41,634 nucleotides of DNA from Verrucomicrobiota bacterium. Lineage in GTDB: Bacteria > Verrucomicrobiota > Verrucomicrobiia > Limisphaerales > UBA9464. A program made the position numbers and the translations under genes. Position 1 is the stretch's first letter. Each line of letters starts with the position of its first letter. The stretch spans positions 1 through 41,634 of the forward strand of contig JANYDN010000138.1 of NCBI GenBank assembly GCA_025363585.1. Reading direction: 5' to 3'. Positions 12,322 to 38,077 of the stretch are shown piece by piece. A model generated the notes under the pieces. It searched no databases. It was not told the DNA's origin and saw nothing but the letters and a program-made list of their open reading frames with translations.

Positions 12322-12333
12322 CCCACGAGGACC

Positions 12334-15840: not shown

Positions 15841-15841
15841 C

Positions 15842-17839
15842 ATGTTCCGGCGATTCATATCCAAGTGGAAGGGATGGGCGAGCGGAGGGGTCGTCGGGTT
15901 CCTGGCACTGTGGCTGTTCGGCCCGGGACCGCTGGGCGACCGTTGCGAACTCATGTCCTTCGACCTCCCGATGTCGGGACACCCGACCGTCGGGCCGGAC
16001 GGCGTCGTGCTGGTCTATATCGACGACGCGTCGTTCCGGGAACTCCAGTGGCCGCACAACCGGACGGTGGACCGTCGTTGGCATGCGGCGTTGCTGAAGG
16101 CGCTGCGGGCGGGCGGCGCGCGGCGCGTGGTGTTCGACGTGTTGTTCAGCGACCCGGACATCGACCCGCGGGGCGACGCGGCGTTCCTCGCCGAGCTACG
16201 TCTTCGGCCCGACACGATCCTCGCCATGAAACACACGTGGACGACGGAATCCGGCGGACGCTCGCTGGTGTCGACCCCGGTGGCTTCCAATTATATAGCG
16301 GGGGTGGGCGGCCGCGTCGGCACCACGTGGTTCCAAAATGATTCCGACGTGGGGGTCCGGAAGCTCCCGACCGCGGTCGGCGGCGTGCCGGCGCTGGCGG
16401 AACTTGCGGCGGCGCTCGACGGAAAGAATCCGGAGGCCGGCGAGCGTGTTCGTTACCTGCATTATTACGGGACGCAGGACCGGTATCCGCAGATTAGTTA
16501 TGCCGGGGTGCTGGCGGGCCGTGCGCCGCCGGGATATTTCAAGGACAAGGTGGTGTTCGTGGGACAGCGGCAGAAGACGGCGTCGGCGGGAAGCGACATG
16601 GACATGTTCGTGACACCTTATACGCGGGCGGGCGACGGCGCGGCGCCCGGGGTGTTGGTGCATGCGACGGCTTACCTGAATCGAATGCGGCACGAATCGC
16701 TGGCCGAACTCGGCGTCGGCTGGGAGGGCCTGCTGTGGCTGGGGGTGCTCGGGATCTCGATGGCATTGCCCGTGTTGTCGCCGCTCCGGTCCGGGGCGGT
16801 GGCGTGGGTCGCGATCGCGGGCTTGGTGGCCGGGGGTTACATGGGCGCACGGTCGGAACACGTGTGGTTCCCCTGGCTTAACATCTCGCTGGTGCTCGTC
16901 GTGGGATGGATCTGGGCGGTCGCCTATGGCGGCGTGCGCCAACACGTCGCCAACCGCGTCCTCGCGGAATCGATCGGCAAACACGTCTCGCCGCGGCGCG
17001 TGCGGCAGCTCCTGGCCCAGCCGGAGGCGCTCCAACCGGGCGGCCGGATGCTCGACGTGAGCGTGGTGTTCACGGACCTCGAGGGATTTTCCAAACTCGC
17101 GCAGCGCGTGCCGCCGTCGGAGCTGATGCGCGAGTTGAACGCCTATTATGAAAAGGCGATCTCGGTGGTCCACGCGGGGGACGGCACGGTGATGGATCTC
17201 ATCGGCGACGCGATCTTCGCGATCTGGAACGCGCCGGAGCCGCAGGAAGACCATGCGGAACGCGCGTGCCGCGCGGCGCTCGCGCTGGCGGGCAAGGTGG
17301 GCGTGTTCGCGGCCGCCAACGGCGGCGTGCCCATGCGCACGCGCATCGGCGTGCACCGCGGCCCGGCGTGCGTCGGCAACGTCGGGAGCAAGAGTCGTTT
17401 TGATTATACAGCGCTGGGCGACGCCGTGAACCTCGCCTCGCGCCTCGAGGGATTGAACAAGCAGCTGGGAACGCGGGTGCTCGCGACCCACGACATCGTC
17501 GCCGACCTCCAGCACGTCCTCGTCACGCGGTTCATCGGGCAGTTCCGGGCCAAGGGTTCCGACCGCGTCTTCCTCGTGCACGAATTGATCCGGCTCCGCG
17601 CGGACGGCGTTGCCGAGGAACCGTGGCTGGAAGTCTTCCGCGAAGGCGTGCGTTCCTTCCAGAACCGCGAGTGGGACCGCGCGGTCGCGTCGTTCTCGCG
17701 CGTCGTCGAGTTGCGCCGCGACCCGGACACCCGCGCCGGCGACGGTCCTTCCGGATTCCTGCTGCAGCGTGTAGCGCGCCTGCGCCAGGAGCCGCCGCCC
17801 GATGACTGGAAGGGCGAGATGACACTGGACGAAAAGTGA
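15842..17839 (+). CDS. CHASE2-domain class III adenylate/guanylate cyclase
   Basis: 665 aa. N-terminal membrane helix (GGVVGFLALWLFG), an extracytoplasmic CHASE2 sensor (~30-280, VVLVYIDDASF, VVFDVLFSDPD), three membrane helices (~295-370), then a cytoplasmic class III cyclase domain (~405-590). Metal-binding Asp412 (FTDLEGF) and Asp456 (IGDAIF) are 44 residues apart, as in the family, and the transition-state Asn and Arg are present in NLASRLEG. The position that usually holds the purine-selecting Lys (DKFIGD-type) reads MDLIGD, so base preference is uncertain. A short TPR-like tail follows (FREGVRSFQNREWDRAVASF). The ATG lies one base after the upstream stop, so translation is probably coupled to the FecR-barrel gene. 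It likely makes cAMP or cGMP in response to a periplasmic signal. Confidence 0.9.
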   Translation: MFRRFISKWKGWASGGVVGFLALWLFGPGPLGDRCELMSFDLPMSGHPTVGPDGVVLVYIDDASFRELQWPHNRTVDRRWHAALLKALRAGGARRVVFDVLFSDPDIDPRGDAAFLAELRLRPDTILAMKHTWTTESGGRSLVSTPVASNYIAGVGGRVGTTWFQNDSDVGVRKLPTAVGGVPALAELAAALDGKNPEAGERVRYLHYYGTQDRYPQISYAGVLAGRAPPGYFKDKVVFVGQRQKTASAGSDMDMFVTPYTRAGDGAAPGVLVHATAYLNRMRHESLAELGVGWEGLLWLGVLGISMALPVLSPLRSGAVAWVAIAGLVAGGYMGARSEHVWFPWLNISLVLVVGWIWAVAYGGVRQHVANRVLAESIGKHVSPRRVRQLLAQPEALQPGGRMLDVSVVFTDLEGFSKLAQRVPPSELMRELNAYYEKAISVVHAGDGTVMDLIGDAIFAIWNAPEPQEDHAERACRAALALAGKVGVFAAANGGVPMRTRIGVHRGPACVGNVGSKSRFDYTALGDAVNLASRLEGLNKQLGTRVLATHDIVADLQHVLVTRFIGQFRAKGSDRVFLVHELIRLRADGVAEEPWLEVFREGVRSFQNREWDRAVASFSRVVELRRDPDTRAGDGPSGFLLQRVARLRQEPPPDDWKGEMTLDEK

Positions 17840-17909: not shown

Positions 17910-19121
17910 ATGAACATCGATACCCAGCCCATCGCGGATTGCACCGGTCCCCGTGCCGTCGCGCCCCATCATGCCGCGGACGAAACGGATTTCGGGCCGC
18001 GTCTCAGCGGGCAGATCGGCGCGGGTTGCCGCCGTGCCACGGCCGCCGGTTCGCCATTCCTGATCGGCGTCCTTCGCGGCGAGGGCATCGGGCCCGAGAT
18101 CATCGAGTGCGCGCTCGAGGTGCTCCGCGCGGTCGGCGAGGCCGACGACGCCTCGTTCCGGATCGAGTTTGGCGGCGACATCGGCCGCGTCTCGGAGAAG
18201 CAATGCGGCCGCGCGCTGTCCGACGACGTGGTCGGTTTCTGCCGCGCCATCTTCGATCGCGGCGGCGTGATCCTCAGCGGCCCCGGCGGCGGTCGCTATG
18301 TCTATGACCTCCGGCAACGCTTCGACCTGTTCTGCAAGCTGAGCCCGATCCGCCCGCCCGCGGAATTGGCCGGTGCCGGCCGCATGGCGGCGGGGCACGC
18401 GGCGGGCACGGACATCCTCGTGGTGCGCGAGTGCGCCTCCGGGCTTTACCAGGGGAAATGGGAACTGGAATCGCGACCGGGCGAACCGCGTCGCGGCGTC
18501 CACACGTTTTCGTACACGGAGTCGGACGTCCGCCGGGTCGTCGGAGCGGCGGCGCGGATGGCGCGCGAACGACGCGGCAGGATCACGGTGATCTACAAGG
18601 AGGCGGGCGCGCCCACGATCAGCGAATTGTGGCGCGACTGCGCGACGGCGATCGCCGCCGAGGTCGGCGTGGAGTGCAACTTCCTCGACATCGATTACTC
18701 CGCCTACCGGATGCTCCAGCATCCTCGCGAGTTCGACGTGATCGTGGCACCGAACCTTTTCGGCGACATTCTTTCCGATGTCGGCGGCGTGCTGCTCGGG
18801 TCGCGGGCGCTCACGTACGGTGGCAACTACGGCGCGGACGGTTCCGCGTTCTACCAGACCAACCACGGTTCCGCGTACGACCTCGCGGGAACGGACCGGT
18901 CGAATCCCGTGGGCCAGTTGTTTTCGCTCGCGCTGTTGTTGCACGAGAGCTTTGGGCTGTCCGGGCCGGCGCGCCGCATCGAGCGCGCGGTCCGCGCCGT
19001 CTGGGCGGCCGGATGGCGCACCGAGGATCTCGCCGAGGCGGGCGGCCGCGTCGTCGGCACCCGGCGCTTCGCCCAACTGGTCGCGGCGGCGATCCTTGAT
19101 CGGTCCCGGCGGGTGGCATGA
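17910..19121 (+). CDS. Isocitrate/isopropylmalate dehydrogenase-family beta-decarboxylating dehydrogenase
   Basis: 403 aa. The fold signature starts at about residue 50 (FLIGVLRGEGIGPEI) and runs to the end: substrate loop VRECASGLYQG (~173), catalytic-type Lys in IYKEAGAP (~228), metal-binding Asp in LDIDYSAYRM, then FDVIVAPNLFGDILSD (~280) and the nucleotide loop NHGSAYDLAGTDRSNP. The family oxidises a 2-hydroxy acid with NAD(P) and decarboxylates it. The substrate loop differs from LeuB (RELTGGIYFG-like) and from isocitrate dehydrogenase, so this is probably a specialised enzyme rather than leucine biosynthesis. Residues 1-49 are an extra segment. AGGAGG lies directly against the ATG at 17910, an unusually short spacing; a TTG at 17847 is a possible alternative. 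70 bp after the cyclase and 1 bp before the next gene, it likely supplies a precursor for the synthetase. Tyr is mostly TAC here, unlike the synthetase. Confidence 0.88.
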   Translation: MNIDTQPIADCTGPRAVAPHHAADETDFGPRLSGQIGAGCRRATAAGSPFLIGVLRGEGIGPEIIECALEVLRAVGEADDASFRIEFGGDIGRVSEKQCGRALSDDVVGFCRAIFDRGGVILSGPGGGRYVYDLRQRFDLFCKLSPIRPPAELAGAGRMAAGHAAGTDILVVRECASGLYQGKWELESRPGEPRRGVHTFSYTESDVRRVVGAAARMARERRGRITVIYKEAGAPTISELWRDCATAIAAEVGVECNFLDIDYSAYRMLQHPREFDVIVAPNLFGDILSDVGGVLLGSRALTYGGNYGADGSAFYQTNHGSAYDLAGTDRSNPVGQLFSLALLLHESFGLSGPARRIERAVRAVWAAGWRTEDLAEAGGRVVGTRRFAQLVAAAILDRSRRVA

Positions 19122-19122
19122 C

Positions 19123-21003
19123 GTGAATGCCCTCCTGATCCTGGTGGATTTGCAGCGCGATTACCTCGCCGCCCCCGGATTGCAACCGCCGGCGGGCGCC
19201 GTGACGGAGCGCGCCGCGCGGTTGCTCGACGCCTTCCGCGCCGCCGGCAGGCCGGTCGTGCACGCGTGGACCACCGTCGATCGCGCCGACGACCGGCGCA
19301 TGCCGCATTGGAAGCGTCTCGGGAAATGGCAGTGCGTGGAAGGCACCGAGGGACACCGACCGCCTCCGGAACTCCAACCGCTCGACGGCGAACCCGTCGT
19401 TCACAAAAGATTCTTCAGCGCTTTCGGCACCGGCGAATTGGACCGGGTATTAAAACAACTCGGCGCGGACACGCTGGTCCTCGCGGGCGTCCATCTCCAC
19501 GCGTGCGTCCGCGCCACCGCGCTGGATGCCTACGAGCGCGGATACCGCGTGTGCATCGCGGAGGACGCGGTCGCGAGCGACGATCCGATCCACGCCGCGA
19601 TCACGCGTCGCTATCTGGGCGACCGCGCCGCGGAATTCCGTCCGGCCGAGTTCTGGTCGGGCCCGTGTGATCCGGATCCGTCGGATATAAGTCGGATCCA
19701 ACCCGCGGTCGGCGGGGCGACGGCATCGGCACGAACCGCGGCGCGGGATTGGGAAGGCACGTCGCCGGAGGCGCGCGTCCGGTTGCTGGAGGAATGGGCG
19801 TGCCGCATCGAGGAAGACGCCGGGATGGCCGGGGCGATCACGGCCGAGACGGGGAAACCGATCCGCCACGCGCGCGGGGAAGTGGCGGCGACGGCGGCGC
19901 AACTGCGGGCGATCGCGCGGCGGATCGCGTCGGAACCGGCGCCGCCCGACGAAGCGACGGCGTTGGTGCGGCACCGCGCTCTCGGCGTGGTGGCGGTGAT
20001 CACGCCTTGGAACAATCCCATTTATATCCCGGCCGGAAAGATCGGGGCGACGCTCGCGCACGGCAACGTCGCGGTGTGGAAACCCGCGCCCGCGGCGTCT
20101 TCGGTCGCACGGCGTCTGGCGGGCCATCTTCGCGCGGCGGGCGCGCCCGAAGGCGTGCTGGGAATCGTGACGGGAGACCGCGCGACCGCCCTCGCGTTGA
20201 TGTCTGATCCCGCCGTGGACGCGGTGACGCTCACGGGGTCGTCCGCCGCCGGCCACGACGCGCAGGAGATCTGCGCGCGGCGCAACATTCCCCTGCAGGC
20301 CGAACTGGGCGGCAACAACGCGGCGATCGTGTGGTCCGACGCGGATCTTCCGGCGGCGGCCGCGGCGATTGCCGAGGGTGCCTTCGCCATGGCGGGACAA
20401 CGCTGCACCGCCAACCGCCGGGTCGTCGTCCACGCGGCGTCGCTCGACGCGTTCCTTGAATTGTTGGTTGAAGCCACCGCCCGGTTGAAGAACGGCGATC
20501 CGATGGATCCCGGGGTGACGATCGGGCCGTTGGTCTCCCGCGCGAGCCGTGATCGCGTCGATGCCTGCGTGGCCCGCGCGCGCGCCCGCGGCCTGCGCAT
20601 CCGCGTGCCGCACGCGGAGGCCGGCGAAGCATCGCCATCCGCCGGAGCCGCGTATCATGACCCGACGTTGATCCTTGCCGACGATCCGCGGGACGAGTGC
20701 GTGCGGGAAGAAACGTTCGGGCCGGTGCTCGTCGTGCAGCGCGCGGCGGACTGGGACGAGGCGATCGCGTTGTGCAACGGGGTCGAGCAGGGACTCGCGG
20801 CCGCGTTGTTCTCGCGGTCCGCGGATTTGCAGCGGGCGTTCCTCGCCGGGGCGCGCGCGGGAATCCTCAAGTTGAACATCTCCACCGCCGGCGCGGACAT
20901 CGACCTTCCCTTCGGTGGTTGGAAATCCTCGGGAATCGGCCCGGCGGAACACGGCGCGAGCGACCGCGAGTTCCATACCCGGACCCAGACGGTGTACCGA
21001 TGA
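19123..21003 (+). CDS. Cysteine hydrolase (isochorismatase-like)-aldehyde dehydrogenase fusion
   Basis: 626 aa from GTG. Residues 1-180 are an isochorismatase-like hydrolase with the full Asp9 (LVDLQRDY), Lys95 (VVHKRFF), Cys128 (LHACVRA) triad; this family cleaves vinyl ethers, nicotinamide, carbamoyl or other amide bonds. Residues ~185-626 are a complete NAD(P)-dependent aldehyde dehydrogenase: TPWNNP, LTGSSAAG, general base Glu394 (AELGGNN), nucleophile Cys428 (GQRCTANR), ETFGPVLVV and FGGWKSSG. Glu-Cys spacing is 34, the family norm. Both halves should be active; fusion suggests that one product feeds the other (an acid and an amine/ammonia-type product). It follows the dehydrogenase by one base and its stop overlaps the synthetase start (ATGA), so it belongs to the same pathway. 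No other in-frame start fits; the GTG at 19123 is the only reasonable one. I know no characterised enzyme with this architecture. Confidence 0.88.
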   Translation: MNALLILVDLQRDYLAAPGLQPPAGAVTERAARLLDAFRAAGRPVVHAWTTVDRADDRRMPHWKRLGKWQCVEGTEGHRPPPELQPLDGEPVVHKRFFSAFGTGELDRVLKQLGADTLVLAGVHLHACVRATALDAYERGYRVCIAEDAVASDDPIHAAITRRYLGDRAAEFRPAEFWSGPCDPDPSDISRIQPAVGGATASARTAARDWEGTSPEARVRLLEEWACRIEEDAGMAGAITAETGKPIRHARGEVAATAAQLRAIARRIASEPAPPDEATALVRHRALGVVAVITPWNNPIYIPAGKIGATLAHGNVAVWKPAPAASSVARRLAGHLRAAGAPEGVLGIVTGDRATALALMSDPAVDAVTLTGSSAAGHDAQEICARRNIPLQAELGGNNAAIVWSDADLPAAAAAIAEGAFAMAGQRCTANRRVVVHAASLDAFLELLVEATARLKNGDPMDPGVTIGPLVSRASRDRVDACVARARARGLRIRVPHAEAGEASPSAGAAYHDPTLILADDPRDECVREETFGPVLVVQRAADWDEAIALCNGVEQGLAAALFSRSADLQRAFLAGARAGILKLNISTAGADIDLPFGGWKSSGIGPAEHGASDREFHTRTQTVYR

Positions 21004-22755
21004 CCGAACCCACGATCATCCGGGCGTTCGATCGACAAGTCGGATTATATCCCGACGCGATCGCCTATAGGTCGGCGTCGGAATCCGTGACTTATACGGA
21101 ATTGCGACGGCGGTCCGGCCGCATCGCGAGCGCCTTGATCGAACGCTCGCCGGCGCCGGGCGAACGGGTGGGCATCCGGTTGCCGCAGGGCGTCGCCTCG
21201 ATCGCCGCTTTCCTGGGAATCCTCGAGGCGGGGAAGATCGCGGTGCCGTTGGATTACATCGGTCCCGACCCGTTGGCCCGCGAGATCCTGGCGGATGCCG
21301 GGGCCTCGTGGTTGATCGGTGGCGAGGCCGGTCACGGGGGCGCGGCGCCGTGGCTGCCGGCGGGTTGTGGTTTCCTTGCTGTCCGCGATCTGGAAACGAC
21401 GGGGACCGGAATTCTTCCGCCGCCGCTTGTGGACGCAGACGCCCCGGCGGTGCTGGTTTATACCTCCGGATCGACGGGACGGCCCAAGGGCGTGTTGAGG
21501 ACCCACGGGAACCTCGTCTGGAACGCGGGCACGTTGGCCGGCGGGCTCTCGGTGCAGGCCGGCGACCGATATGGTTTCCTGGCCGGATATAATACCGGGA
21601 ACGGCGTGTCGAATTTGTTCCGGGCGCTGTTGAACGGCGCCACGATCCTGGGCTTCGACCTGCGCGTCCAGGGCATCGATAGTCTCGCGCCGTGGCTTCG
21701 GGATCAAAAGGCGACCCTCCTCTCGTGCCCGGCGTCGGTGTTCCGCGAACTAATCGCTACGTTGTCGCCGGGCCAGGAATTCCATGGGGTCCGGATGGTC
21801 GGGCTGACCAGCGAGCCCGTCCAACCGCGCGATCTGGAGACGTGGCGACGACATTTCGCGGCGCCCTGCGTTTTCGGCAACACGCTGTCGTCCACCGAAA
21901 CCGGCGTGATCGCGTCGCGGGTGTTCGGGCGCGACACGGTGCTCCCGACGCCGTCCGTGCCCATCGGGTGGCCCGCGGCCGGGGTCCGGGTCCGTTTGTT
22001 GGATGCGTCGGGCGGCGAGTCGGGGGAAGGCGAGTCCGGCGAGATCGTGGCGAGCGGTCCGGGGATTGCCGCCGGATATTGGAATCAGGAAGAAGCAACG
22101 GCGCGGGTCTTCCGGCGCGACGCGGACGGCAGCGTGTGGTTTCACACGGGCGACATGGCGAGCCGTGGGCCGGACGGTTGTATAAGTCACGCCGGCCGCC
22201 GCGATTTCAGGATCAAGGTCCGCGGGCATGGCGTGGAACTCGAGGCGGTCGAGGCGGCGGTCGCCGGGCATCCGGGTGTGCGCGACGCCGCGGTGGCCGT
22301 GCGCTCGGGAACGCGGAACGAAGCCGTGCTGGTGGCCTTCGTCGTGCCCGTCCCGGGATCGGCTCCCGGCGCGGCCGGACTCCGACGCGGTCTCCAGGAA
22401 CGGCTGCCCGAACCGATGGTTCCCGCGTCCTTCGTGTTCCTGGAGAAATTGCCGCGCGGCGCCAACGGGAAGGTGGATCGCCGGGCGTTGGCGGAAATGC
22501 CGGTGGAACATCCGGCGCCGCACGCCGGGATCGCGCCGCGGACGCCGACGGAGGAACGGCTCGCGGGAATCTGGAGCGAGGTATTGGGGCCGGTGGATTT
22601 CGGCGTGGACGATGGCTTCCACGAATTGGGCGGACACTCGTTGTCGGCGACGCGCGTATTGTCGCGGATCACCAAGGCCTTCGAAGTCTCGGTTCCGCTG
22701 CGCGATTTCCTCGGGAATCCCACGATCAAATGGCTGGCGGGCCGGATCGATTCGG
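21000..22755 (+). other. NRPS module 1: loading A domain and PCP
   Basis: The adenylation core motifs VYTSGSTGRPKG (~residue 153) and RIKVRGHGVELEAVE plus NGKVDR with its Lys are present, so it should form an acyl-adenylate. Where amino-acid-activating domains have FD (Asp235, GrsA numbering), this one reads GYNTGNGVSNLFRALLNGA, aligning Gly with Asp235; the A5 motif is LSSTETG instead of YGPTET. Loss of Asp235 means that an alpha-amino group is probably not bound. The starter may be a keto, hydroxy, dicarboxylic or aryl acid. PCP motif LGGHSLSAT. Confidence 0.8.
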
Positions 22756-25700
22756 GGGCGATGGCGATCGTGGGCGATGCCTCCGCGCTTCGGCCGCGGC
22801 GCCGCGACGGCGAGATCCCGTTGTCGTTCGCACAACAGCGGTTTTGGTTTCTCGAACAATTCGGCCCGGGCACCGGCGCCTACAATGTCCCGTGGGCACT
22901 GCGCCTGCGCGGTCGTTTGGATCGCGGGGCGTTGATGCACGGGTTGCACGTCATCGTGGGTCGACACGAATCGCTGCGCACCGTGTTCCGCGCGGGCAAC
23001 GGCGATCCCGTGCAGATCGTCCTGCCCGACGTGGACCTCGAACCGGTGGCGAGGGATTTGTCGGGACTCGCCGGAGAAGCCCGCGAATCCGCCTGCGGGG
23101 AATTCCTGCGCGCGGAGGCCCGCCGGCCCTTCGATCTGGAACGGGGACCGCTGGTGCGCGTCGCGCTGGCGGTGCTCGGGACCGACGACCACGTGCTCCT
23201 GGTCACGCTGCACCACATCGTCTGCGATCGTTGGTCGAAGTGGATCCTGACCCGCGAATTGGCGGTATTATATAAGGACCGCGTCGAGGGTCGCGAACCG
23301 GGATTGCCGGCCTTGCCGCTGCAGTACGGTGATTTCGCGACGTGGCAACGGGAGCGTCCGGAAGGCCCGGGATACGCCGTTGATGTCGGTTATTGGAAGC
23401 GGAAGCTCGCCGGGCTCGAGCCGGTGGAATTGCCGGGCGATCGACCCAGATCCGCGAACGAGAGCCCGGCCGGCGCCACCATGTGGTTCGCGATCGACGC
23501 CGCGTTGGTGCGGGGCGTCGCGGAGTTGGCGCGTCGCGAGGGAACCAGCCCGTTCGCGGTCGCCATGGCCGCGTTCCAGGTCCTGCTGCATCGCCACACG
23601 GGACAGTCGGACCTCGCGGTCGGGACGGCGGTCGCGAACCGGCACCATGTCGATCTCGAGGGCGTCATCGGGCTCTTCATCAACATGCTGGTCATCCGGG
23701 GCGACCTGTCCGGCAACCCGCCGTTCCGTCGGTTCCTGCACGGGCTTTGGCAGACGGTGTTGGAGGCGCGCGACCACCAGGAATTGCCGTTCGAGCGATT
23801 GGTGGAGGAACTCCATCCGGGCCGGAGTCTGGGACGGCACCCGTTGTTCCAAGTCCTTTTCCTCCTGCAGAACATGCCCACGGAGGACCTGTCGCTTCCC
23901 GGCCTCGCGATCGAGACGCTCGACGTCGATTCGGGACGGGCCACGTTCGATTTGTCGGTGGTCCTGATGGAGGAGGAAGGCCAATGGAGGGCGCGCTGGG
24001 AATATAACTCGGACCTCTTCGACGCGGCGACGATCCGGCGGATGGCCGCGCACTACCTGATCCTGCTGGAGTCCGTGGTGTCGGATCCGGAGTGCGTCGT
24101 GGGCGGTTTGCCGATGCTGGCGGGCGACGAGCGACGGTGGTTGCTCGAGACGTGCAACCGCACGGAGTCGCCGTTGCCGGGGGACAAGGGAGTCCACCAT
24201 TTGTTCGCCGAACAGGTGGCGCGCGCGCCCGGCGGGATCGCCGTGGAATTCGGCGAGCGTCGGTTGACTTATACCGCGTTGGATCGTCGCGCGCGCGCTC
24301 TGGCCGCCCGTCTCCGCGCCCTCGGCGTGGGTCCGGACGTGACGGTGGGGGTTTACCTGGAGCGTTCGGAGAACATGGTGGCGGGGTTGCTCGGGATATT
24401 GATGGCCGGCGGCGTCTACCTGCCGCTGGACCCGAACCTGCCCGCCGCCCGCTTGGAACGGATGCTCGGCGACGCGCGTCCCGCGGCCGTGTTGGTCGGG
24501 CGAAAAACGCGGGAAGGTCCACCCGGGAATTCCGCCGCGCTGGTGTGGGTCGAGGAGATGCAAGACGAAGGCGATCCGTCGGACGATGGGAACCGCGGCG
24601 GGGAATATCCGGCGGTCGGCGCGTCCCTTGCCTATATTCTTTATACCTCGGGTTCGACCGGCCAACCGAAGGGCGTCGCGATCCCGCATCGTGCCCTCGT
24701 CAATTTCCTGCTCTCGATGGCCCGCGAGCCGGGAATGGGGCCCGGGGACCGGATGCTGGCGATCACGACGATCGGCTTCGACATCGCCGCGCTGGAGATT
24801 TTCCTGCCGTTGATCACGGGCGCCCGGGTGGTACTCGCGAGCCGCGAGCAAGCGACCGACGGCAAGGCCATTTCGCGCCTCATCGACGGGTCCGGGGCGA
24901 CGGTCGTGCAGGCGACGCCGGCGACCTGGCGCATGCTCGTGGAATCGGGATGGCAGGGAAGCCCATCGCTCCGGTTCCTGACGGGTGGCGAGGCATTGCC
25001 CCGGGAACTCGCGGGACAGTTGTTGGCCCGGTGCGGGGAATTATGGAACCTATATGGTCCCACCGAGACCACCGTCTACTCCCTCGGGTCGCGCGTCGCG
25101 GCCGGGGCGGCGATCGTCATCGGCCGGCCGCTCGCCAATACCCGTGCCTATATCCTCGACGCGCTGCGGCAACCGGTCCCGGTGGGCGTGGCCGGCGAAC
25201 TCCACGTCGGCGGCGAGGGTCTCGCCCGGGGTTATGTAAACCAACCGGGTTTGACCGCGGACAAATTCGTTCCGGATCCGTTCGCGGTCGTGCCCGGCGA
25301 ACGCATGTACCGGACCGGGGACCTCGCGCGATGGCGGTCCGACGGCACCGTCGAGTATCTCGGACGCATCGACCACCAGGTCAAGCTGCGTGGATTCCGC
25401 ATCGAGCCCGCCGAGATAGAATCCGCGCTCGCCGCGTGCCCCGGGGTTTTGCGGTCCACCGTCGTTCTCCGGAAGGATGCGCGCGGCGACGAGCGCCTGG
25501 TGGCCTATATCGTGCCGGTGGACCCGGCGTCGCGCCCGGCGTTCGCCGTCCTTGCCAGGCAACTCCGGTCCGTCCTGCCGGACTACATGGTGCCGACGGC
25601 CTTCGTCGCGCTCGGGTCGTTGCCTTTGACGCCGGGCGGCAAGCTGGATCGGCGGGCGTTGCCCGAACCCGATGCCAACGGGACGGGTACGGACGACACT

Positions 25701-28700
25701 TATATGGCGCCCGCCACGCCCGTGCAGGAACGCCTCGCCGGGATCTGGGGGAAGTTGTTGGGCGTGGAACGGCCCGGGCTCCGCGATGATTTCTTCGAGG
25801 CGGGCGGCCATTCGTTGCTCGCGATGCGCTTCGTCGCCCGCGTGCGGAACGCATGGTCGATCGAGTTGCCCATCCGTGCATTGTTCGAGCAACCGTCCCT
25901 TGGCGGACTCGCGGAACGCGTCGAGGCATTGCTGGTCCGGCCGACGGGAGAGAGCGCGACGATTCCCCGGCGCGCGGCCGACGACGGGTTGCCGCCGCTT
26001 TCGTTCGCGCAACAGCGGTTGTGGTTTCTCGATCGCTTCAAGGGCTCGAGCCTCGAATACAACATGCCCGAGGTGCTGTCGCTTCGCGGCGCCCTCGATG
26101 CGGACGCCTTGGAACGCGCTTTCAATCGCGTCGTCGCCCGGCACCAAAGCCTGCGCACGCGGTTCAACGAGGCCGACGCCGTCGCGGTGCAGGTCGTGGC
26201 GGCCGAGCTTCGTGTCCCGTTGCCGGTGGAAGACCTCTCGGGACTCGGTGGCGCCCAGCGGGAGGCGTCGATTGCCGCGGCGGTGGCACACGACCGCGCG
26301 GATCCGTTCGACCTCGAGCGGGGTCCGTTGCTGCGGGTGCGACTGCTGCGGTTGGGTCCGGCGGAGCACCTGCTGCTGCGGAATTGCCACCATATAATAT
26401 CCGACGGCTGGTCGAGGGAAGTGTTCGACCGCGAACTGGAGGCGCTGTACGCGGCCTATATATCGGGCGGCGACGATCCGTTGCCGCCGCTGGCCATCCA
26501 ATATCCGGACTACGCGGTGTGGCAGCGCCAATGGTTGTCCGGCGCGGAACTCGCGCGGCAAATCGGATATTGGCGCGGGCGACTGGCGGACGCCCCGGCG
26601 CTGGAGTTGCCCCTGGATCGTCCGCGTCCCGCCGAGGAGACCCACAAGGGTGGGCTGCATCGGTTCGCGTTGCCGGCCGGGCTCGGGAAACGGCTCCGGG
26701 AATTCAACCGGATGGAGAACGCCACGCCGTTCATGACGATGCTGGGAGCGTTCCAGATCCTGTTGTCGCGGCTCTCCGGCCAGAACGACATCCTCGTGGG
26801 GACGCCGATCGCCAATCGACGGCGGCTCGAACTCGAGGCGCTGATCGGGTTCCTGGCCAACACCCTCGTGTTGCGTCTGGACCTCTCGGGCGTACCGGAC
26901 TTCCGGGAAATCGTCGCGCGCGTGCGCCGGTCGACGCTCGATGCCTTCGAACACCAGGACCTGCCGTTCGAGAAGCTCGTCGAGGAGCTGAACCCCGCGC
27001 GCGACCTCGCCCGCCACCCGTTTTTCCAGGTTCTTTTCGGGATCCAGGACGTCCCGCCCCGAAGATTGGATCTGGAGGGACTGGAGGTCTCCGTGGTGCC
27101 CGGCGCCGGGGGTACGACGCATTTCGACCTCGAGCTCAACGTCTCCGCGACCGGGGGGGACTGGGCGGGTTACATTAAGTATAACTCCGATCTTTTCGAC
27201 ACCGCGACGATCGCACGGATGGCGGTTCAATTCGGGATATTGCTCGGGGGCTTGCTGGCCAACCCGGACCTCGAGGTCTCGCGCCAACCGCTGATGGAAG
27301 CGGACGAGCGCCGGCGCCTGTTGTCCGCCCGGAACCCGCCGCGCGCGAACGCCGCCGCGGGGCTCCGCGTGCACGAGACGGTCGCCCTCGTCGCGGCCGA
27401 CGCCCCAGGCCGGCCCGCCGCGACGTTGGGCGACGCCTCGATTGGCTATGGCGAGCTCGTCGAACGCGCCGATCGCCTCGCGCGCCGGTTGATCGCGCTG
27501 GGCGTGGGTCCCGACGTCCCGGTCGGCCTGTGCGTCCCGCGCACGCTCGATCTTCCCGTCGCGGTGCTCGGGATCCTCCGGGCGGGCGGCGCGTGCGTGC
27601 CCCTCGATCCCGAGCTTCCCGACGGGCGATTGGCCTTGATGTTGGCCGACGCGCGTCCGGCGGTGGTCGTCGTGCAACCCGGCCTCGAACCGCGCGTGGG
27701 CGGCGCGGGCCATGTCACCGTGCCCGTGGATGCGTCCGGACCGGAAACCGCGGCGGCAACGTTATATAAGCCACGCGTCCGGGCGGGGGCCGATGACCTG
27801 GCTTATATCCTGTTCACGTCGGGATCCACGGGCCGGCCCAAGGGCGTCGCGGTCCCGCACCGGACGCTGGAGAATCTCGTGGAATGGCAGGTGCGCGCGT
27901 CGGGGCTCGCGCCGGGCGCGAGGACATTGCAGTTCGCGTCGCCCGGATTCGACGTGGCGTTCCAGGAACTGTTCGCGACGTGGTGCGGCGGCGGCACCCT
28001 GGTGATGGCGGACGAGGCGACGCGGCGCGACGCGGCGGCGCTGGCGCGGTTGGTCCGCGGGGCTTCGGTCGCGCGGGTGTTCGTTCCCTTCGCGGTGCTC
28101 GACGCGCTCGCGTCGGCGTTGTGCGACGGTCCCGGCGGCCCGCACGCGCTGCGCGAGGTGATCACCGCGGGCGAGGCGCTCCGCGTCACGCCGGCGATCC
28201 GGTCGATGTTCGCGCGCTGGCCCGGGATGGTCCTCGTGAACCAATACGGTCCCACGGAAACGCACGTGGCCACCGCGTGGACTTTGGCCGGCCCGCCCGC
28301 GGATTGGCCGTCGCGACCGCCCATCGGCCATCCCGTCGCGAACACGTCCGCCCTCGTGCTGGACGGCCATCTCCAGCCCGTGCCCATCGGCGTCGCCGGC
28401 GAGTTATATCTCGGGGGCGACGGCCTCGCGCGGGGCTATGTCGGTTCGCCGTCGTCGACGGCCGCTCGGTTCGTGGCGGACCCGTTCGACCCCGCGGGGG
28501 GCGCGCGGTTATATAGGACCGGAGATTGGTGCCGCCGGCTTCCCGACGGCGCGATCGAGTTCCTGCACCGGCGCGACGACCAGGTAAAGATCCGCGGGCA
28601 CCGGGTCGAGACGGGAGAGGTGGCGTCGGTGCTGGGCGGCGCCCCGGGCGTCAGGGCGTGCGTGGTTTCGGCGGAGGCGGACGCGGGCGGCGACACGCGG

Positions 28701-31700
28701 TTGGTGGCGCACGTCGTGCCGATGGATCCGGGGTCGCCGCCGGAACGCGCGGCGCTTCGGGACTTCGTGCGGCGGCAATTGCCGGACGCGATGATACCGG
28801 CCGGGATCGTGTTCCTGCCGGCCCTTCCGCTCACGGCGAACGGAAAGGTGGATCGACGCGCGCTCCCGTCGGCGGAATCCAAGGAACCGGAAACGGGCGG
28901 GAGCCATGCCTATGTCGCGCCCCGCACTCCTGTGGAGGACGCGGTGGCCGGCATCTGGCGGGACGTGCTGGGGACGTCCCGCGCCGGGATCCACGACGAT
29001 TTCTTCGCGTCGGGCGGCCACTCGCTGATGGCGATGCGGCTGGTGGCGCGCGTCCGCGCGGTGTTCTCGGTCGAATTGCCGGTGCGGACGTTGTTCCAGC
29101 ACCCGACCCTGGGCGCGCTGGCGGGGAACATCCTGGCGTTGGGCGACGCGGCCCCGCGGATGCGGATCGTCCCGCTGGAAGCCGGACGGCGGGCGGCAAG
29201 GACGCCGCTTTCGTTCGCGCAGCAGAGGCTTTGGTTCCTTGACGAACTGGAACCCGGCGGCGCCGCCTATAACATCTCGTCCGGGCTCCGGCTCCGCGGC
29301 CCGCTGGATGCCGCGTCGCTCGCCCTGAGCCTGCGGGAGTTGGTGCGGCGGCACCAGGTCCTGCGCACCACGTTTCCGGCCACGGCGGGCGAACCCGAAC
29401 AGGTCGTCGGCGCGCCGTGCGACGTGGCCATCGAATGCTCGGACCTCCGGGAATTGCCGGAAGAGGCCCGCCTCGCGGAGGCACGGCGCCTGTCGTCGTC
29501 GGCCGCAAATCGTCCCTTCGACCTGGCGCGCGACCCGATGCTGCGGGCGTTGTGCCTGCGCCTTGCGGACGACGAGCACGAGCTCGTGATCACGGTGCAC
29601 CACATCGCGGCCGACGGCTGGTCCCTGGACGTGCTGTGGAGGGAATTGGGGGTGTTATATAGCTCTTATATAGCCGGCCGCCCCTCGCCGATGCCGGAGT
29701 TGCCGCTGCAATACGCCGACTACGCCGCGTGGCAACGCGAATGGCTGCGGGGTGATATATTGGATCGCCAGTTGGCTTACTGGAAGGAACGCATGGCGGG
29801 CGCGCCGCCGTTGCTGGAGCTCCCGACGGATTTCCACCGACCCGCGTCGGTCGGATACCGGGGTGAACGGCGGGAACTCCAGTTGGCCCCGGCCTTGGGT
29901 CGATCGATCCGGGCCCTGGGGCGACGCGAGGGCACCACGCTGTTCATGACGCTTCTGGCGGCATGGGCGTCCTTGCTGTGCCGACTCGGGGGGCAGGACG
30001 ACGTGGTGGTCGGCACCCCGATCGGCGGGCGAACCCTCTCGGAGTTGGAGGGGTTGGTCGGCTTTTTCGTCAACACCCTCGCATTGCGGGTCGATCTCGC
30101 GGGCCGTCCGACGTTCCGGGAATTGCTGCGTCGGGTGCGGGAGGTGGCGCTGGGCGCGTACGCGCATCCGGACCTTCCGTTCGAGCGGTTGGTGGAGGAA
30201 CTGAGACCCGAACGCCACTCCGGCCACGCGCCGTTGTTCCAGGCGATGTTGCTGCTGCAGCCCGCGCCCGGTCCGGTCGGGCCGTTTGGGACGCTGGAGG
30301 CCGGCGCGCTCGACATCCCGTTCACCGCCGCGAAGTTCGACCTGACGCTCTCGTTGCGGGAGCAGGGCGACGGGTTGCGGTGCGCGCTCCTATATAATAC
30401 CGAGCTCTTCGAGGGCGCGACCATCGTTCGGTGGCTTGGGCATTTCGAGCGGCTCCTCCAAGGCATCGCGAGGGATCCCGACTGCCGGGTCGGCGAGTTG
30501 CCGTTGTTGTCGGACGCCGATCGGCGCCGGCTCCTGGAGGAATGGAACCCGGCCCCGACCGGCTTTCCCGGCACGCGCTGCGTGCACGAATTGTTCGCCG
30601 ACCAGGCACGGCTTACCCCGGCGGCGACGGCGGTCGTGCACGGCGGCGAGACGATGACTTATATCGGGCTCGATGGCCGCGCGAACCGCCGGGCCCACGA
30701 ACTCCGCGCGCGCGGCGTGTCGCGCGGCTCCGCCGTGGCGGTCCATCTGGAACGCTCCGCCGACCTGTTGGTCGCCGTGCTCGCGATCCTCAAGTGCGGC
30801 GCATGCTATGTCCCGTTGGCCGTCGATTATCCCGCCGCCCGCAAACGCTTCATCCTCGAAGACTGCCGGGCGACCGTGGTCATCGGCCACGGGGATTTGC
30901 CGGACGACGCCCGGCCGCCTTCCTGCATTGATATCGACGCCCGCGGATGGGCCTCGGGAGATCCGGATGGTCCGGCCGGGCCTCCGTCGACGGACGCGGG
31001 CCCGTGCGACCCCGCCTACGTGATCTATACGTCGGGTTCCGCCGGCGAACCGCGGGGCGTCGTGGTCGGGCATCGGGCCATCGCGCGGCTGGTCTTCGGC
31101 CAATCGTACGCCGAGTTCGGTGGCGACCGCGTGTTCCTGCAACTCGCACCGGTGGCGTTCGATGCCTCGACTTTCGAAATCTGGGGCGCGTTGTTGCACG
31201 GGGCGAAGCTGGTCGTGGCACCTGAAAGCCCTTTGGATCTTCCCGCGCTCGGCGAACTGATCCGGACGCACGGCGTCACCACGCTTTGGATGACGGTCGG
31301 CCTTTTCAACGAGGTCATCGACACGAGGCCCGGGACCCTGGAAGGGGTGCGGGAAATACTGACCGGGGGCGACGCGCTCTCGCCGCGGCACGTCCGCCTG
31401 GCGCAGGAACACCTGGGCCCGCGGACGCGAATCATCAATGGCTATGGTCCCACCGAATGCACGACCTTCGCGTGCTGCCATTCGATCCCGCGGGATTCCG
31501 GCACCGCGGCGTCCAGCGTTTCCATCGGTCGTCCCATCGCCAACACGCTCGCCTATGTGCTCGACGCGCGCGGGGAATTGGCGCCGATCGGCGTGCCCGG
31601 GGAATTATACCTGGGCGGTCCTGGGCTCGCGGACGGATACCTAAATAATCCACGCCTCACCGCCGAACGATTCGTGGCCGACCCGTTCTCTCGCGAGCCC

Positions 31701-33227
31701 GGGGCCCGGATGTATCGCACGGGCGACCGCGTCCGATGGTTGCCGGACGGCACGCTGGACTTCCTTGGGCGCGGGGATTTCCAGGTGAAGATCCGCGGGT
31801 TCCGCGTCGAGTTGGGCGAGATCGAGCGGGTGTTGGAGGAACATCCCGCCGTCGAGGAAGTGGTCGTGGACGCGCGCGCCGGGGCGGACGGCGGGAAATC
31901 GCTCGTCGCCTATTGGAAGGCACGCCCGGGCCAGGCCACCGAGGGCGCCGGTCTCGCGGCGTTCGCGAGGGAGCGGCTCCCTGCATTCATGATGCCGGGC
32001 GCGTGGGTGGAGTTGGCCGCGTTGCCGCTCACGCGGTCGGGCAAGATCGACCGTCGTGCGTTGCCGGAGCCGACGTCGTCGGGAGCGCCGGGCGCGGGTC
32101 CGGCGGAAGCCGACTCGATTTACGAGGCCATGCTGGCACGGCATTTTGCCGAGGTATTGGGACGCGGGAAGGTCGGGCTCGACGACAATTTCTTCGCGTG
32201 CGGGGGGCATTCGCTGGCGGCGTTGCGGTTGCTCCACCGGATCGAGGAAGGGTTCGGCGTGCGGCTGCCGCCGCGCGTGTTGTTCGAGGCGGCGACCGTC
32301 CGCACGCTCTCGGTCCGCATCCAGTCGTTGCGCAAGGAACATCCCGGGGGGTTGTCTTATCCCGCGGGCGATCCGTTGGTCACGATCCAGGAAGGCGACG
32401 GGAAACGGCCGCTGTTCCTGTTCCCCGGGGGTTATGGGGACGAATCGGAATTCCTGACGCACGCGTGGATCTGCCAGCGGCATCTCGGCCCCGATTTCGC
32501 GCTGAAGGCGTTCCGGAACCGCTCGTGGCGCGGCGCCGCGCCGCTGCAGGCCGATCTCCGGACGATGGCCCGCGATTGCATCGCGGACATGCGGCGCGTG
32601 CAGGGCGCCGGACCGTGGCACCTGGTCGGCCTTTGCGTGGGCAGCACCCTCGCGCATGAGGTCGCGCTTCAACTCCAGGAGTCGGGCGAGGAGGTGGCGA
32701 TGCTGGCGATGGGCGACGCGCCGCGGTCCGGTCCTCGTGGCTATTGGAAGTTGTGCCGGGCGGATTCGTTCCGCGGCGCGCGGCAATGGATCTCGAACAC
32801 GCTGTTCCTGGGATTGCCGTGGCTCCGCGCCGCGATGACGGCATCGGGACGTCGAGTGGTCCAGCAACGGCTGCTCGGGGGGCTGGGCCATGGGTCGGCG
32901 GCATCGGGCTCGCCGGAAGCCGCCGCCTTGGAACTGGACCGTCATCTGCACTCGGAATGGTGCCACTATCAGAACGGCGAGGCCTACCTGCGCCGGATGA
33001 TGTCGGTTCCCCGCGGCAAATTCCGCGGGCGTCTCGACCTCATGTTGAGCGGCGAGCACGCGGCCCGGGGACGCGGCATGGAGTGGGCGTCGCGCGCGAC
33101 CGGCGGCGCCGAGGTGCTGCGGCTGCCCGGCTCGCACGCTACGTACCAAGTGGAGGGCGGCGAACAAATCGCCGCCTTGTACCTAAAGCGCCTCGGCCGG
33201 GAATCGGGTGGAACGGACGCCGCCTAG
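21000..33227 (+). CDS. Four-module non-ribosomal peptide synthetase with C-terminal thioesterase
   Basis: 4075 aa, order A-PCP-C-A-PCP-C-A-PCP-C-A-PCP-TE, detailed in the five following entries. Carrier-protein Ser is present in all four GGHSL motifs (residues ~547, 1604, 2674, 3737). Three C domains carry HHxxxD at ~738, 1797 and 2868. No epimerisation, methylation or reductase domain is visible, and there is no donor-accepting C domain at the front, so this protein should start its own chain. The predicted product is a linear or cyclised acyl-tripeptide: unknown starter acid, then Gly-, Pro- and Val-like residues. The start ATG overlaps the preceding stop (ATGA), giving coupled translation. 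No transporter, phosphopantetheinyl transferase or regulator gene of the usual type is in the window. The gene is dotted with TATA-containing AT-rich spots that break its GC-rich codon use. Confidence 0.97.
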   Translation: MTEPTIIRAFDRQVGLYPDAIAYRSASESVTYTELRRRSGRIASALIERSPAPGERVGIRLPQGVASIAAFLGILEAGKIAVPLDYIGPDPLAREILADAGASWLIGGEAGHGGAAPWLPAGCGFLAVRDLETTGTGILPPPLVDADAPAVLVYTSGSTGRPKGVLRTHGNLVWNAGTLAGGLSVQAGDRYGFLAGYNTGNGVSNLFRALLNGATILGFDLRVQGIDSLAPWLRDQKATLLSCPASVFRELIATLSPGQEFHGVRMVGLTSEPVQPRDLETWRRHFAAPCVFGNTLSSTETGVIASRVFGRDTVLPTPSVPIGWPAAGVRVRLLDASGGESGEGESGEIVASGPGIAAGYWNQEEATARVFRRDADGSVWFHTGDMASRGPDGCISHAGRRDFRIKVRGHGVELEAVEAAVAGHPGVRDAAVAVRSGTRNEAVLVAFVVPVPGSAPGAAGLRRGLQERLPEPMVPASFVFLEKLPRGANGKVDRRALAEMPVEHPAPHAGIAPRTPTEERLAGIWSEVLGPVDFGVDDGFHELGGHSLSATRVLSRITKAFEVSVPLRDFLGNPTIKWLAGRIDSGAMAIVGDASALRPRRRDGEIPLSFAQQRFWFLEQFGPGTGAYNVPWALRLRGRLDRGALMHGLHVIVGRHESLRTVFRAGNGDPVQIVLPDVDLEPVARDLSGLAGEARESACGEFLRAEARRPFDLERGPLVRVALAVLGTDDHVLLVTLHHIVCDRWSKWILTRELAVLYKDRVEGREPGLPALPLQYGDFATWQRERPEGPGYAVDVGYWKRKLAGLEPVELPGDRPRSANESPAGATMWFAIDAALVRGVAELARREGTSPFAVAMAAFQVLLHRHTGQSDLAVGTAVANRHHVDLEGVIGLFINMLVIRGDLSGNPPFRRFLHGLWQTVLEARDHQELPFERLVEELHPGRSLGRHPLFQVLFLLQNMPTEDLSLPGLAIETLDVDSGRATFDLSVVLMEEEGQWRARWEYNSDLFDAATIRRMAAHYLILLESVVSDPECVVGGLPMLAGDERRWLLETCNRTESPLPGDKGVHHLFAEQVARAPGGIAVEFGERRLTYTALDRRARALAARLRALGVGPDVTVGVYLERSENMVAGLLGILMAGGVYLPLDPNLPAARLERMLGDARPAAVLVGRKTREGPPGNSAALVWVEEMQDEGDPSDDGNRGGEYPAVGASLAYILYTSGSTGQPKGVAIPHRALVNFLLSMAREPGMGPGDRMLAITTIGFDIAALEIFLPLITGARVVLASREQATDGKAISRLIDGSGATVVQATPATWRMLVESGWQGSPSLRFLTGGEALPRELAGQLLARCGELWNLYGPTETTVYSLGSRVAAGAAIVIGRPLANTRAYILDALRQPVPVGVAGELHVGGEGLARGYVNQPGLTADKFVPDPFAVVPGERMYRTGDLARWRSDGTVEYLGRIDHQVKLRGFRIEPAEIESALAACPGVLRSTVVLRKDARGDERLVAYIVPVDPASRPAFAVLARQLRSVLPDYMVPTAFVALGSLPLTPGGKLDRRALPEPDANGTGTDDTYMAPATPVQERLAGIWGKLLGVERPGLRDDFFEAGGHSLLAMRFVARVRNAWSIELPIRALFEQPSLGGLAERVEALLVRPTGESATIPRRAADDGLPPLSFAQQRLWFLDRFKGSSLEYNMPEVLSLRGALDADALERAFNRVVARHQSLRTRFNEADAVAVQVVAAELRVPLPVEDLSGLGGAQREASIAAAVAHDRADPFDLERGPLLRVRLLRLGPAEHLLLRNCHHIISDGWSREVFDRELEALYAAYISGGDDPLPPLAIQYPDYAVWQRQWLSGAELARQIGYWRGRLADAPALELPLDRPRPAEETHKGGLHRFALPAGLGKRLREFNRMENATPFMTMLGAFQILLSRLSGQNDILVGTPIANRRRLELEALIGFLANTLVLRLDLSGVPDFREIVARVRRSTLDAFEHQDLPFEKLVEELNPARDLARHPFFQVLFGIQDVPPRRLDLEGLEVSVVPGAGGTTHFDLELNVSATGGDWAGYIKYNSDLFDTATIARMAVQFGILLGGLLANPDLEVSRQPLMEADERRRLLSARNPPRANAAAGLRVHETVALVAADAPGRPAATLGDASIGYGELVERADRLARRLIALGVGPDVPVGLCVPRTLDLPVAVLGILRAGGACVPLDPELPDGRLALMLADARPAVVVVQPGLEPRVGGAGHVTVPVDASGPETAAATLYKPRVRAGADDLAYILFTSGSTGRPKGVAVPHRTLENLVEWQVRASGLAPGARTLQFASPGFDVAFQELFATWCGGGTLVMADEATRRDAAALARLVRGASVARVFVPFAVLDALASALCDGPGGPHALREVITAGEALRVTPAIRSMFARWPGMVLVNQYGPTETHVATAWTLAGPPADWPSRPPIGHPVANTSALVLDGHLQPVPIGVAGELYLGGDGLARGYVGSPSSTAARFVADPFDPAGGARLYRTGDWCRRLPDGAIEFLHRRDDQVKIRGHRVETGEVASVLGGAPGVRACVVSAEADAGGDTRLVAHVVPMDPGSPPERAALRDFVRRQLPDAMIPAGIVFLPALPLTANGKVDRRALPSAESKEPETGGSHAYVAPRTPVEDAVAGIWRDVLGTSRAGIHDDFFASGGHSLMAMRLVARVRAVFSVELPVRTLFQHPTLGALAGNILALGDAAPRMRIVPLEAGRRAARTPLSFAQQRLWFLDELEPGGAAYNISSGLRLRGPLDAASLALSLRELVRRHQVLRTTFPATAGEPEQVVGAPCDVAIECSDLRELPEEARLAEARRLSSSAANRPFDLARDPMLRALCLRLADDEHELVITVHHIAADGWSLDVLWRELGVLYSSYIAGRPSPMPELPLQYADYAAWQREWLRGDILDRQLAYWKERMAGAPPLLELPTDFHRPASVGYRGERRELQLAPALGRSIRALGRREGTTLFMTLLAAWASLLCRLGGQDDVVVGTPIGGRTLSELEGLVGFFVNTLALRVDLAGRPTFRELLRRVREVALGAYAHPDLPFERLVEELRPERHSGHAPLFQAMLLLQPAPGPVGPFGTLEAGALDIPFTAAKFDLTLSLREQGDGLRCALLYNTELFEGATIVRWLGHFERLLQGIARDPDCRVGELPLLSDADRRRLLEEWNPAPTGFPGTRCVHELFADQARLTPAATAVVHGGETMTYIGLDGRANRRAHELRARGVSRGSAVAVHLERSADLLVAVLAILKCGACYVPLAVDYPAARKRFILEDCRATVVIGHGDLPDDARPPSCIDIDARGWASGDPDGPAGPPSTDAGPCDPAYVIYTSGSAGEPRGVVVGHRAIARLVFGQSYAEFGGDRVFLQLAPVAFDASTFEIWGALLHGAKLVVAPESPLDLPALGELIRTHGVTTLWMTVGLFNEVIDTRPGTLEGVREILTGGDALSPRHVRLAQEHLGPRTRIINGYGPTECTTFACCHSIPRDSGTAASSVSIGRPIANTLAYVLDARGELAPIGVPGELYLGGPGLADGYLNNPRLTAERFVADPFSREPGARMYRTGDRVRWLPDGTLDFLGRGDFQVKIRGFRVELGEIERVLEEHPAVEEVVVDARAGADGGKSLVAYWKARPGQATEGAGLAAFARERLPAFMMPGAWVELAALPLTRSGKIDRRALPEPTSSGAPGAGPAEADSIYEAMLARHFAEVLGRGKVGLDDNFFACGGHSLAALRLLHRIEEGFGVRLPPRVLFEAATVRTLSVRIQSLRKEHPGGLSYPAGDPLVTIQEGDGKRPLFLFPGGYGDESEFLTHAWICQRHLGPDFALKAFRNRSWRGAAPLQADLRTMARDCIADMRRVQGAGPWHLVGLCVGSTLAHEVALQLQESGEEVAMLAMGDAPRSGPRGYWKLCRADSFRGARQWISNTLFLGLPWLRAAMTASGRRVVQQRLLGGLGHGSAASGSPEAAALELDRHLHSEWCHYQNGEAYLRRMMSVPRGKFRGRLDLMLSGEHAARGRGMEWASRATGGAEVLRLPGSHATYQVEGGEQIAALYLKRLGRESGGTDAA
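22812..25935 (+). other. NRPS module 2: C-A-PCP, glycine-like code
   Basis: The C domain begins LSFAQQRFWF and its active site reads HHIVCDR (~738), with Arg in place of the usual Gly of HHxxxDG. The A domain aligned by eye to GrsA gives specificity residues D-I-L-Q-L-G-L-V-Y-K, close to the known glycine code DILQLGLIWK; the run QATPATW is also typical. PCP motif AGGHSLLAM. It probably joins the starter acid to Gly. Confidence 0.7.
25980..29145 (+). other. NRPS module 3: C-A-PCP, proline-like code
   Basis: C domain LSFAQQRLWF with HHIISDG (~1797). A domain residues read D-V-Q-F-I-A-Q-V-A-K, differing at two positions from the proline code DVQFIAHVVK; the local sequence GFDVAFQELFATWCGGGTL is of the proline-activating type. 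A related cyclic imino acid is possible. PCP motif SGGHSLMAM. Confidence 0.65.
29175..32310 (+). other. NRPS module 4: C-A-PCP, valine-like code
   Basis: C domain LSFAQQRLWF with HHIAADG (~2868). A domain residues read D-A-F-W-L-G-G-T-F-K, one conservative change from the valine code DAFWIGGTFK. The A3 phosphate-binding loop is IYTSGSAGEPRG, with Ala and Arg where Thr and Lys are usual. PCP motif CGGHSLAAL. Confidence 0.7.
32380..33224 (+). other. NRPS thioesterase domain with Cys nucleophile
   Basis: Alpha/beta-hydrolase thioesterase starting PLFLFPGGYGDESEF. The nucleophile elbow reads GLCVGS with Cys3879 where type I thioesterases normally have Ser (GxSxG). The candidate acid Asp3906 (AMGDAP) is 27 residues later, the same spacing as Ser80-Asp107 in surfactin thioesterase, and His4046 lies in LPGSHATYQVEG. 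All triad positions are therefore filled, with Cys for Ser. It releases the peptide by hydrolysis or ring closure. Confidence 0.85.
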
Positions 33228-36936: not shown

Positions 36937-37063
36937 GAAACGAATTAACCGAGAATAGGCAATCGGGTCAAAGTGGGATAGCGATTGGTTGAACGAAGCC
37001 GCTGCGCGGGGGGCTTCGCCGTAGTGGACGACCATGGTGGTCCGGGGCACACGCTCCGGGTGT

Positions 37064-37370
37064 ATGAACACCATTAAGCCACTTCGGCAAAAAGTCATCG
37101 ATCACTCCCTCAAGTCCGCCGAAGCCTCGGGCGAAAGTGGACTCTCAAGTCCGCCGAAGCCTCGCGCGAAGGTGGATCACCCTCCGACAACTCGCCGCGC
37201 GCACCGTCGGGACTTATATCACTTGGGTCGCCGACTTCGCCGGGTTTCACGGGCGCTCTCCCGATGCCCTCGGGCGTCCGGAGATCGACTCGTGGTTACT
37301 CCACCTCATCCAAAGTCGCAAGCTCTCCGACGCCTCCGTCACCCTCGCGAGCGCATCGTGCCACTGCCCC
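37064..37370 (+). pseudogene. Tyrosine recombinase N-terminal fragment, copy A
   Basis: Joined across frames it reads MNTIKPLRQKVIDH..., then RTVGTYITWVADFAGFHGRS and LGRPEIDSWLLHLIQSRKLS, the SAM-like core-binding domain of a phage-type integrase (IS91-associated or IntI-like; not resolved). A tandem duplication of the palindromic word TCCGCCGAAGCCTCGCGCGA breaks the frame after IDH, and the catalytic domain (Arg, His, Tyr) is missing. Confidence 0.65.
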
Positions 37371-37753
37371 CGGATTTTCACGGCGCGATTCTCTCCCGCT
37401 GAATCGCCCGGTGCGGCAACTCGGTTTCCGGAACACCGATTGTTCATGGGAAGCAAGGGAGCAGGGAACGGGGTTGGCCTGCCACCGCAGGAAGCGGGCG
37501 ACAAGGCACATCCCTTTCCTGCGGGGAAGTGGGAGCCACAGATTGCGGTCCATTTGCACGGAATTGTTCCTCGGGAAGGAAGATCTGGCGTTGGGAAACC
37601 GGAGGAGTCCCGACGATCCTCCGCACGGGGTTCTTGGGCCAACGCGCGGCAACGGAACCCGGATTTCCCGAACTCCCCTTCGCCCAACAACGCCATCCAA
37701 ACAAAACAAAAATCTGTGGAAATGGGTTCCAATCTGTGGCTAACAGATCCTCG

Positions 37754-38011: not shown

Positions 38012-38077
38012 GATGAACGCAAGCGCCCATGAAATCGTGGCCGCGCCGCGCCGGAGCCTTTGCAAGTGTTGGGGGAC

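Follow-up and report, generated by a model that had tools for sequence, protein, structure and literature searches.

Organisation of the locus

The window, that is the whole stretch of 41,634 nucleotides that was analysed, contains three plus-strand genes that form a tight operon: a LeuB-like dehydrogenase, a fusion of a hydrolase and an aldehyde dehydrogenase (ICH-ALDH), and a non-ribosomal peptide synthetase (NRPS) (Table 1). The fusion starts one base past the stop of the LeuB-like gene, and a 4-base ATGA overlap joins it to the NRPS gene. These start codons and gaps confirm the first-pass annotation, which had described the genes as overlapping or one base apart. Among the annotated open reading frames of the window we recognised no other biosynthetic, transport or carrier-activating gene, and scanning it for Rfam families and tRNAs gave no matches; a search of the assembly for 16S rRNA likewise gave none. 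At the level of the genome, two matches to PF01648, the phosphopantetheinyl transferase family, on contig C381 could provide carrier activation; the two genes lie about 2.4 kb apart (11579-14477).

Table 1. Genes and domains of the operon, with positions in the window
Feature	Position	Strand	Basis and remarks
LeuB-like beta-decarboxylating dehydrogenase paralogue, 403 aa	17910..19121	+	ATG 17910; Pfam Iso_dh, E 5e-59
ICH-ALDH fusion	19123..21003	+	GTG 19123; Pfam Isochorismatase (E 1e-39) and Aldedh (E 8e-111) within the same protein
N-terminal isochorismatase-like cysteine hydrolase domain	19123..19680	+	Pfam Isochorismatase
C-terminal aldehyde dehydrogenase domain	19681..21003	+	Pfam Aldedh
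NRPS, 4,075 aa, A1-T-C-A2-T-C-A3-T-C-A4-T-TE	21000..33227	+	ATG 21000; Pfam domains
A1, starter adenylation domain	21000..22499	+	Code GNSSGTT.., no Asp235, C-terminal Lys kept
C1, condensation domain	22830..24179	+	HHIVCDR in place of HHxxxDG (motif table)
A2, DILQLGLVYK, predicted Gly	24180..25709	+	GrsA alignment
A3, DVQFIAQVAK, predicted Pro	27390..28889	+	GrsA alignment
A4, DAFWLGGTFK, predicted Val	30570..32069	+	GrsA alignment
Type I thioesterase (TE)	32310..33227	+	Cys nucleophile in GLCVG (codon 32634-32636), Asp in GDAP, His in GSHATY

Upstream of the LeuB-like gene, Pfam identified three proteins. One is a CHASE2-cyclase, in which a CHASE2 sensor is fused to an adenylate/guanylate cyclase (15794-17839); it ends 70 bases 5' of the LeuB-like gene and is not conserved beside relatives. 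The other two are very long proteins (7207-15840), one of 1,704 aa with a He_PIG domain and one of 1,168 aa that combines TPRs and a TonB/autotransporter-like barrel in a single chain. In the sister genome G576, PolX directly adjoins the LeuB-like gene with none of these proteins in between; in the window PolX lies 12 kb upstream. Because of this arrangement in G576, and since the three genes are not found beside the relatives, we rejected them as members of the cluster. Downstream of the NRPS gene, a gene-poor region of lower GC contains two imperfect direct copies of a stretch of about 1.2-1.4 kb (37030-38420 and 38860-40090), which share about 90% identity where they align.

The LeuB-like dehydrogenase forms a separate clade

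Fold, catalytic residues and cofactor region of the LeuB-like protein are those of 3-isopropylmalate dehydrogenase (IPMDH; LeuB, TIGR00169), which also gave the best PDB and profile matches, and an AlphaFold model (pLDDT 84) matches IPMDH folds, although such a model does not tell the ligand. The catalytic set is kept (R135, R173, Y180, K230, D262, D286, D290), and the Tyr, Lys and metal-binding Asp residues characteristic of the beta-decarboxylating dehydrogenase superfamily (Y180, K230, D262, D286, D290) are invariant in 16/16 sequences. In contrast to LeuB, however, the protein scores only 200 bits against the TIGR00169 cut-off of 353, and it falls far below every other NCBIfam equivalog cut-off as well, while a true LeuB of the same genome, on contig C241, reaches 450 bits. 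The roles of the IPMDH residues, including the substrate-binding arginines, are well established. Of the three substrate arginines of IPMDH, the second (equivalent to Arg104) is gone from the LeuB-like protein, where S145 in KLSP takes its place; Ser, Val, Thr or Asn is found there in the relatives. Alignments further mark the clade by a shortened loop (about 13 residues missing compared to LeuB), a conserved GGRYVYDLR-type stretch and a conserved lysine, K143, and in a phylogenetic tree 16 LeuB-like sequences were split from 16 canonical ones by a branch with support 100.

Its score, its clade and the true leuB elsewhere in the genome rule out that this is the housekeeping LeuB, and bear out the earlier description of the enzyme as specialised. 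The sub-cut-off scores, the separate clade, the loss of the Arg104 equivalent, the missing loop, the GGRYVYDLR-type stretch and Lys143 together make it likely that its substrate differs from that of canonical LeuB. LeuB paralogues that serve an NRPS are known from natural product clusters, where enzymes of the HphB/HtyC type (homophenylalanine, homotyrosine) accompany paralogues of LeuA and LeuCD and the product is an amino acid. The window likewise has a LeuB paralogue that probably serves an NRPS, but unlike those systems we saw no LeuA or LeuCD paralogues in its cluster, and A1 does not have Asp235.

The fusion combines a cysteine hydrolase with an aldehyde dehydrogenase

Reading of the hydrolase domain located a triad of Asp (LVDLQRDY), Lys (VVHKRF) and Cys (HLHACVRA), and its nearest PDB structure is 3eef, related to N-carbamoylsarcosine amidase. 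True isochorismatases of the EntB type have no catalytic Cys. Judged by its Asp-Lys-Cys triad, the hydrolase half is thus of the cysteine amidohydrolase (amidase) type and not a true isochorismatase. The same triad rules out a true isochorismatase that would provide a 2,3-DHB starter. The aldehyde dehydrogenase half retains its catalytic residues (Cys in GQRCTANRR, Glu in AELGGNN); its nearest NCBIfam models are the alpha-ketoglutaric semialdehyde and 2,5-dioxovalerate dehydrogenases, with a score far under the cut-off, and its nearest PDB structure is a succinate-semialdehyde dehydrogenase.

The NRPS is predicted to join a non-amino acid to Gly, Pro and Val

By Pfam the NRPS contains 4 AMP-binding, 3 Condensation, 4 PP-binding and 1 Thioesterase domains. 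Its C-A-T modules follow one another with their core motifs intact and end in a TE, and neither a KR nor an E or MT domain was recognised. Domain order and codes agreed with the first-pass annotation, which had read an acyl-Gly-Pro-Val assembly line with a starter-acid A domain and a Cys thioesterase. Specificity codes were derived by alignment to GrsA, and for A4 two residues were adjusted by eye for a one-column gap. The A2 code is an established Stachelhaus code for Gly. The A4 code is listed as Val, for MlcM, and the A3 code resembles Pro codes given in the same source, among them DVQFVAQVVK (PMC9113097).

A1 differs from these domains. In A domains that activate amino acids, Asp235 holds the alpha-amino group of the substrate (PMC11355689). 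A1 has Gly at this place and some relatives have Ala or Ser, and a branch with support 100 sets A1 and its relatives apart from the A domains for amino acids. The AlphaFold model of A1 (pLDDT 87) has the ANL adenylation fold, and the model does not tell the ligand. The predicted substrate of A1 is a non-amino acid. Position 299 of the pocket is Arg in most relatives and Gly in the window; because the pocket residues vary in this way, the starter acid may differ between them. Furthermore, the C1 domains that follow A1 in the window and in the relatives have HHxxxD(R/K) instead of HHxxxDG.

A conserved cassette recurs across the phylum

We searched for the LeuB-like gene in the phylum, in the order and also in the order to which genome G066 belongs, and read the flanks of each orthologue over about 5-48 kb. 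This gave orthologues with 44-72% identity in 18 further genomes of the same phylum. A fused ICH-ALDH adjoins the LeuB-like gene in 13/18 genomes, an unfused aldehyde dehydrogenase in 2/18 (G059 and G781, where the hydrolase domain is absent near the cassette), and in the remaining 3/18 (G544, G559, G563) the fusion is encoded at another place in the genome. In 14/18 an A1-type domain is a neighbour, and in 2 the contig ends first. Because this arrangement recurs in other genomes, it is not due to chance. Of the 36 family genomes searched for both genes, 6 carry the LeuB-like gene, and exactly these 6 also carry the fusion; the chance of this is 1/C(36,6) = 5e-7 if the genomes are independent, and since they are related the figure serves only for orientation. 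In both G544 and G559 a single LeuB-like gene and a single fusion lie on separate contigs; the LeuB-like gene neighbours an adenylating protein of the A1 type, and ICH-ALDH neighbours a second A1-T-C. With each of the split genes next to its own A1-type protein, it is probable that both serve to supply the acid for A1.

The partner protein is a one-module A-T-TE in nine genomes (G548, G443, G566, G330, G338, G652, G556, G059, G066), whereas in the window's family the A1-type domain opens a longer NRPS, namely in G544, in G576, at the end of whose NRPS no TE was found, and in the window. By their codes the products of these three would be acyl-Pro, acyl-Pro-Val and acyl-Gly-Pro-Val, respectively. 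The LeuB-like gene, ICH-ALDH and A1-T are, by these sequence comparisons, a conserved cassette that also occurs without extra modules. From this distribution we infer that the first two genes and the A1-T part represent the older cassette, also found with the one-module A-T-TE protein, and that the extra modules were added later by C-A-T insertion.

In several A-T-TE relatives (L056, L057, L059, L060, L054, L062) the TE-like domain carries Cys at the Ser position (Arg in L062), and the catalytic His seems to be missing. Since Cys is present and His seemingly missing, the TE of many A-T-TE relatives may work differently, act non-hydrolytically or be inactive.

A probable pathway to an N-acylated Gly-Pro-Val and its alternatives

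Taken together, we consider it fairly probable that the operon makes an N-acylated Gly-Pro-Val, capped with an unusual small non-amino (or alpha-keto) acid that the LeuB-like enzyme and ICH-ALDH supply. The LeuB-like enzyme would oxidise a malate-type hydroxy acid with NAD, a step in which CO2 is probably lost, and ICH-ALDH would hydrolyse an amide (or enamide) and oxidise an aldehyde to an acid. The two would thereby feed A1, which would adenylate the acid and load it onto T1; C1 to C3 would then add Gly, Pro and Val in turn, and the Cys-thioesterase would free the finished chain. Operon, domain order, codes, loss of Asp235 and Cys nucleophile are all read from the sequence; we infer, rather than read, that the two enzymes feed A1, in which order they react, what the acid is chemically and how the chain is released. 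Several observations stand against it. In G622, which carries both the LeuB-like gene and the fusion, the 48 kb read around them encode no A1-type protein, and the acid may therefore have another use too. Furthermore, the A1 pocket varies at position 299, G059 and G781 do without a nearby hydrolase domain, and the A1-type domain beside the LeuB-like gene of G559 is only 28% identical to A1.

LeuB-family enzymes yield alpha-keto acids, and direct loading of alpha-keto acids is known for cereulide, for valinomycin-type systems and for A-T-TE quinone/furanone synthetases. The LeuB-like enzyme might thus make an alpha-keto acid that A1 loads directly, with ICH-ALDH acting earlier to create the carboxylate required by the LeuB-like enzyme, and the product would be an alpha-keto-acyl-Gly-Pro-Val. 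Consistent with this, the LeuB-like gene directly adjoins A1 without ICH-ALDH between them in G544, G559 and G563, and the usual A-T-TE partner has the layout of synthetases that dimerise alpha-keto acids (PMC10316625). However, the NRPS has no KR domain, and Val in the first position of the code, a sign of alpha-keto-acid activation in the fungal group (PMC10316625), is replaced by Gly in A1, although that rule comes from fungal enzymes. The fungal A-T-TE synthetases (PMC10316625) resemble the partner of most relatives in layout and in using a non-amino acid substrate, but differ in their code, whereas here a LeuB-like enzyme and ICH-ALDH are associated and the window protein is extended by C-A-T modules. 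We regard the alpha-keto-acid variant as rather unlikely. Release by ring closure appears improbable: the Cys-TE would then close a strained or macrocyclic ring, in the style of a beta-lactone or beta-lactam, and no linear acid would be released. The Cys nucleophile is indeed shared with ObiF (obafluorin) and SulM (sulfazecin), which form four-membered rings and combine it with a shifted Asp (PMC6668435, PMC11298585). Judged on sequence only, however, the Asp of the window TE (GDAP) occupies the canonical first position, as in AB3403, and this disfavours a beta-lactone-type release; in addition, the terminal Val offers no beta-nucleophile, and the catalytic His is seemingly absent in several relatives. 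It is very improbable that the LeuB-like enzyme and ICH-ALDH belong to catabolic or housekeeping metabolism and lie beside the NRPS by chance, with A1 taking a common acid. All three enzyme families include catabolic members, and the NRPS part is missing nearby in G622, but the joint occurrence of the two genes and their repeated adjacency to A1 across families, the one-base and 4-base gene junctions and the true LeuB elsewhere in the genome all argue against it.

As to the earlier remark that the combination matches no recognised cluster, a search of the accessible literature for the three-gene combination found no paper naming it, and a limited scan of 84,980 species genomes with the fusion returned only ALDH relatives at 33%, no close fused relative and no cassette. 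The biosynthetic cassette is real and apparently undescribed. More tentatively, the LeuB-like clade and ICH-ALDH could make a starter acid unseen in natural products and form a portable cassette, which the phylum would use with stand-alone A-T-TE proteins and, through C-A-T insertion between T and TE, for capping short Pro-containing peptides; we hold this broader proposal to be possible, if doubtful. The locus suggests that one bacterial phylum harbours an entire family of clusters for small molecules, and it offers a new clade of LeuB-like enzymes that is open to assay, an unusual fusion enzyme and a putative starter acid. The series from A-T-TE over acyl-Pro and acyl-Pro-Val to acyl-Gly-Pro-Val is a possible case of assembly-line growth by module insertion.

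We also observed oxygenase genes next to the cassette in some genomes. Rieske oxygenases with a LigXa-type C-terminal domain adjoin it in G548, G566 and G544 (L056:13069-14382, L058:11695-13302 and L051:323-1621), which suggests oxidative tailoring of the acid, and in G066 the cassette is followed by what reads, from its sequence alone, as a PhyH-like protein.
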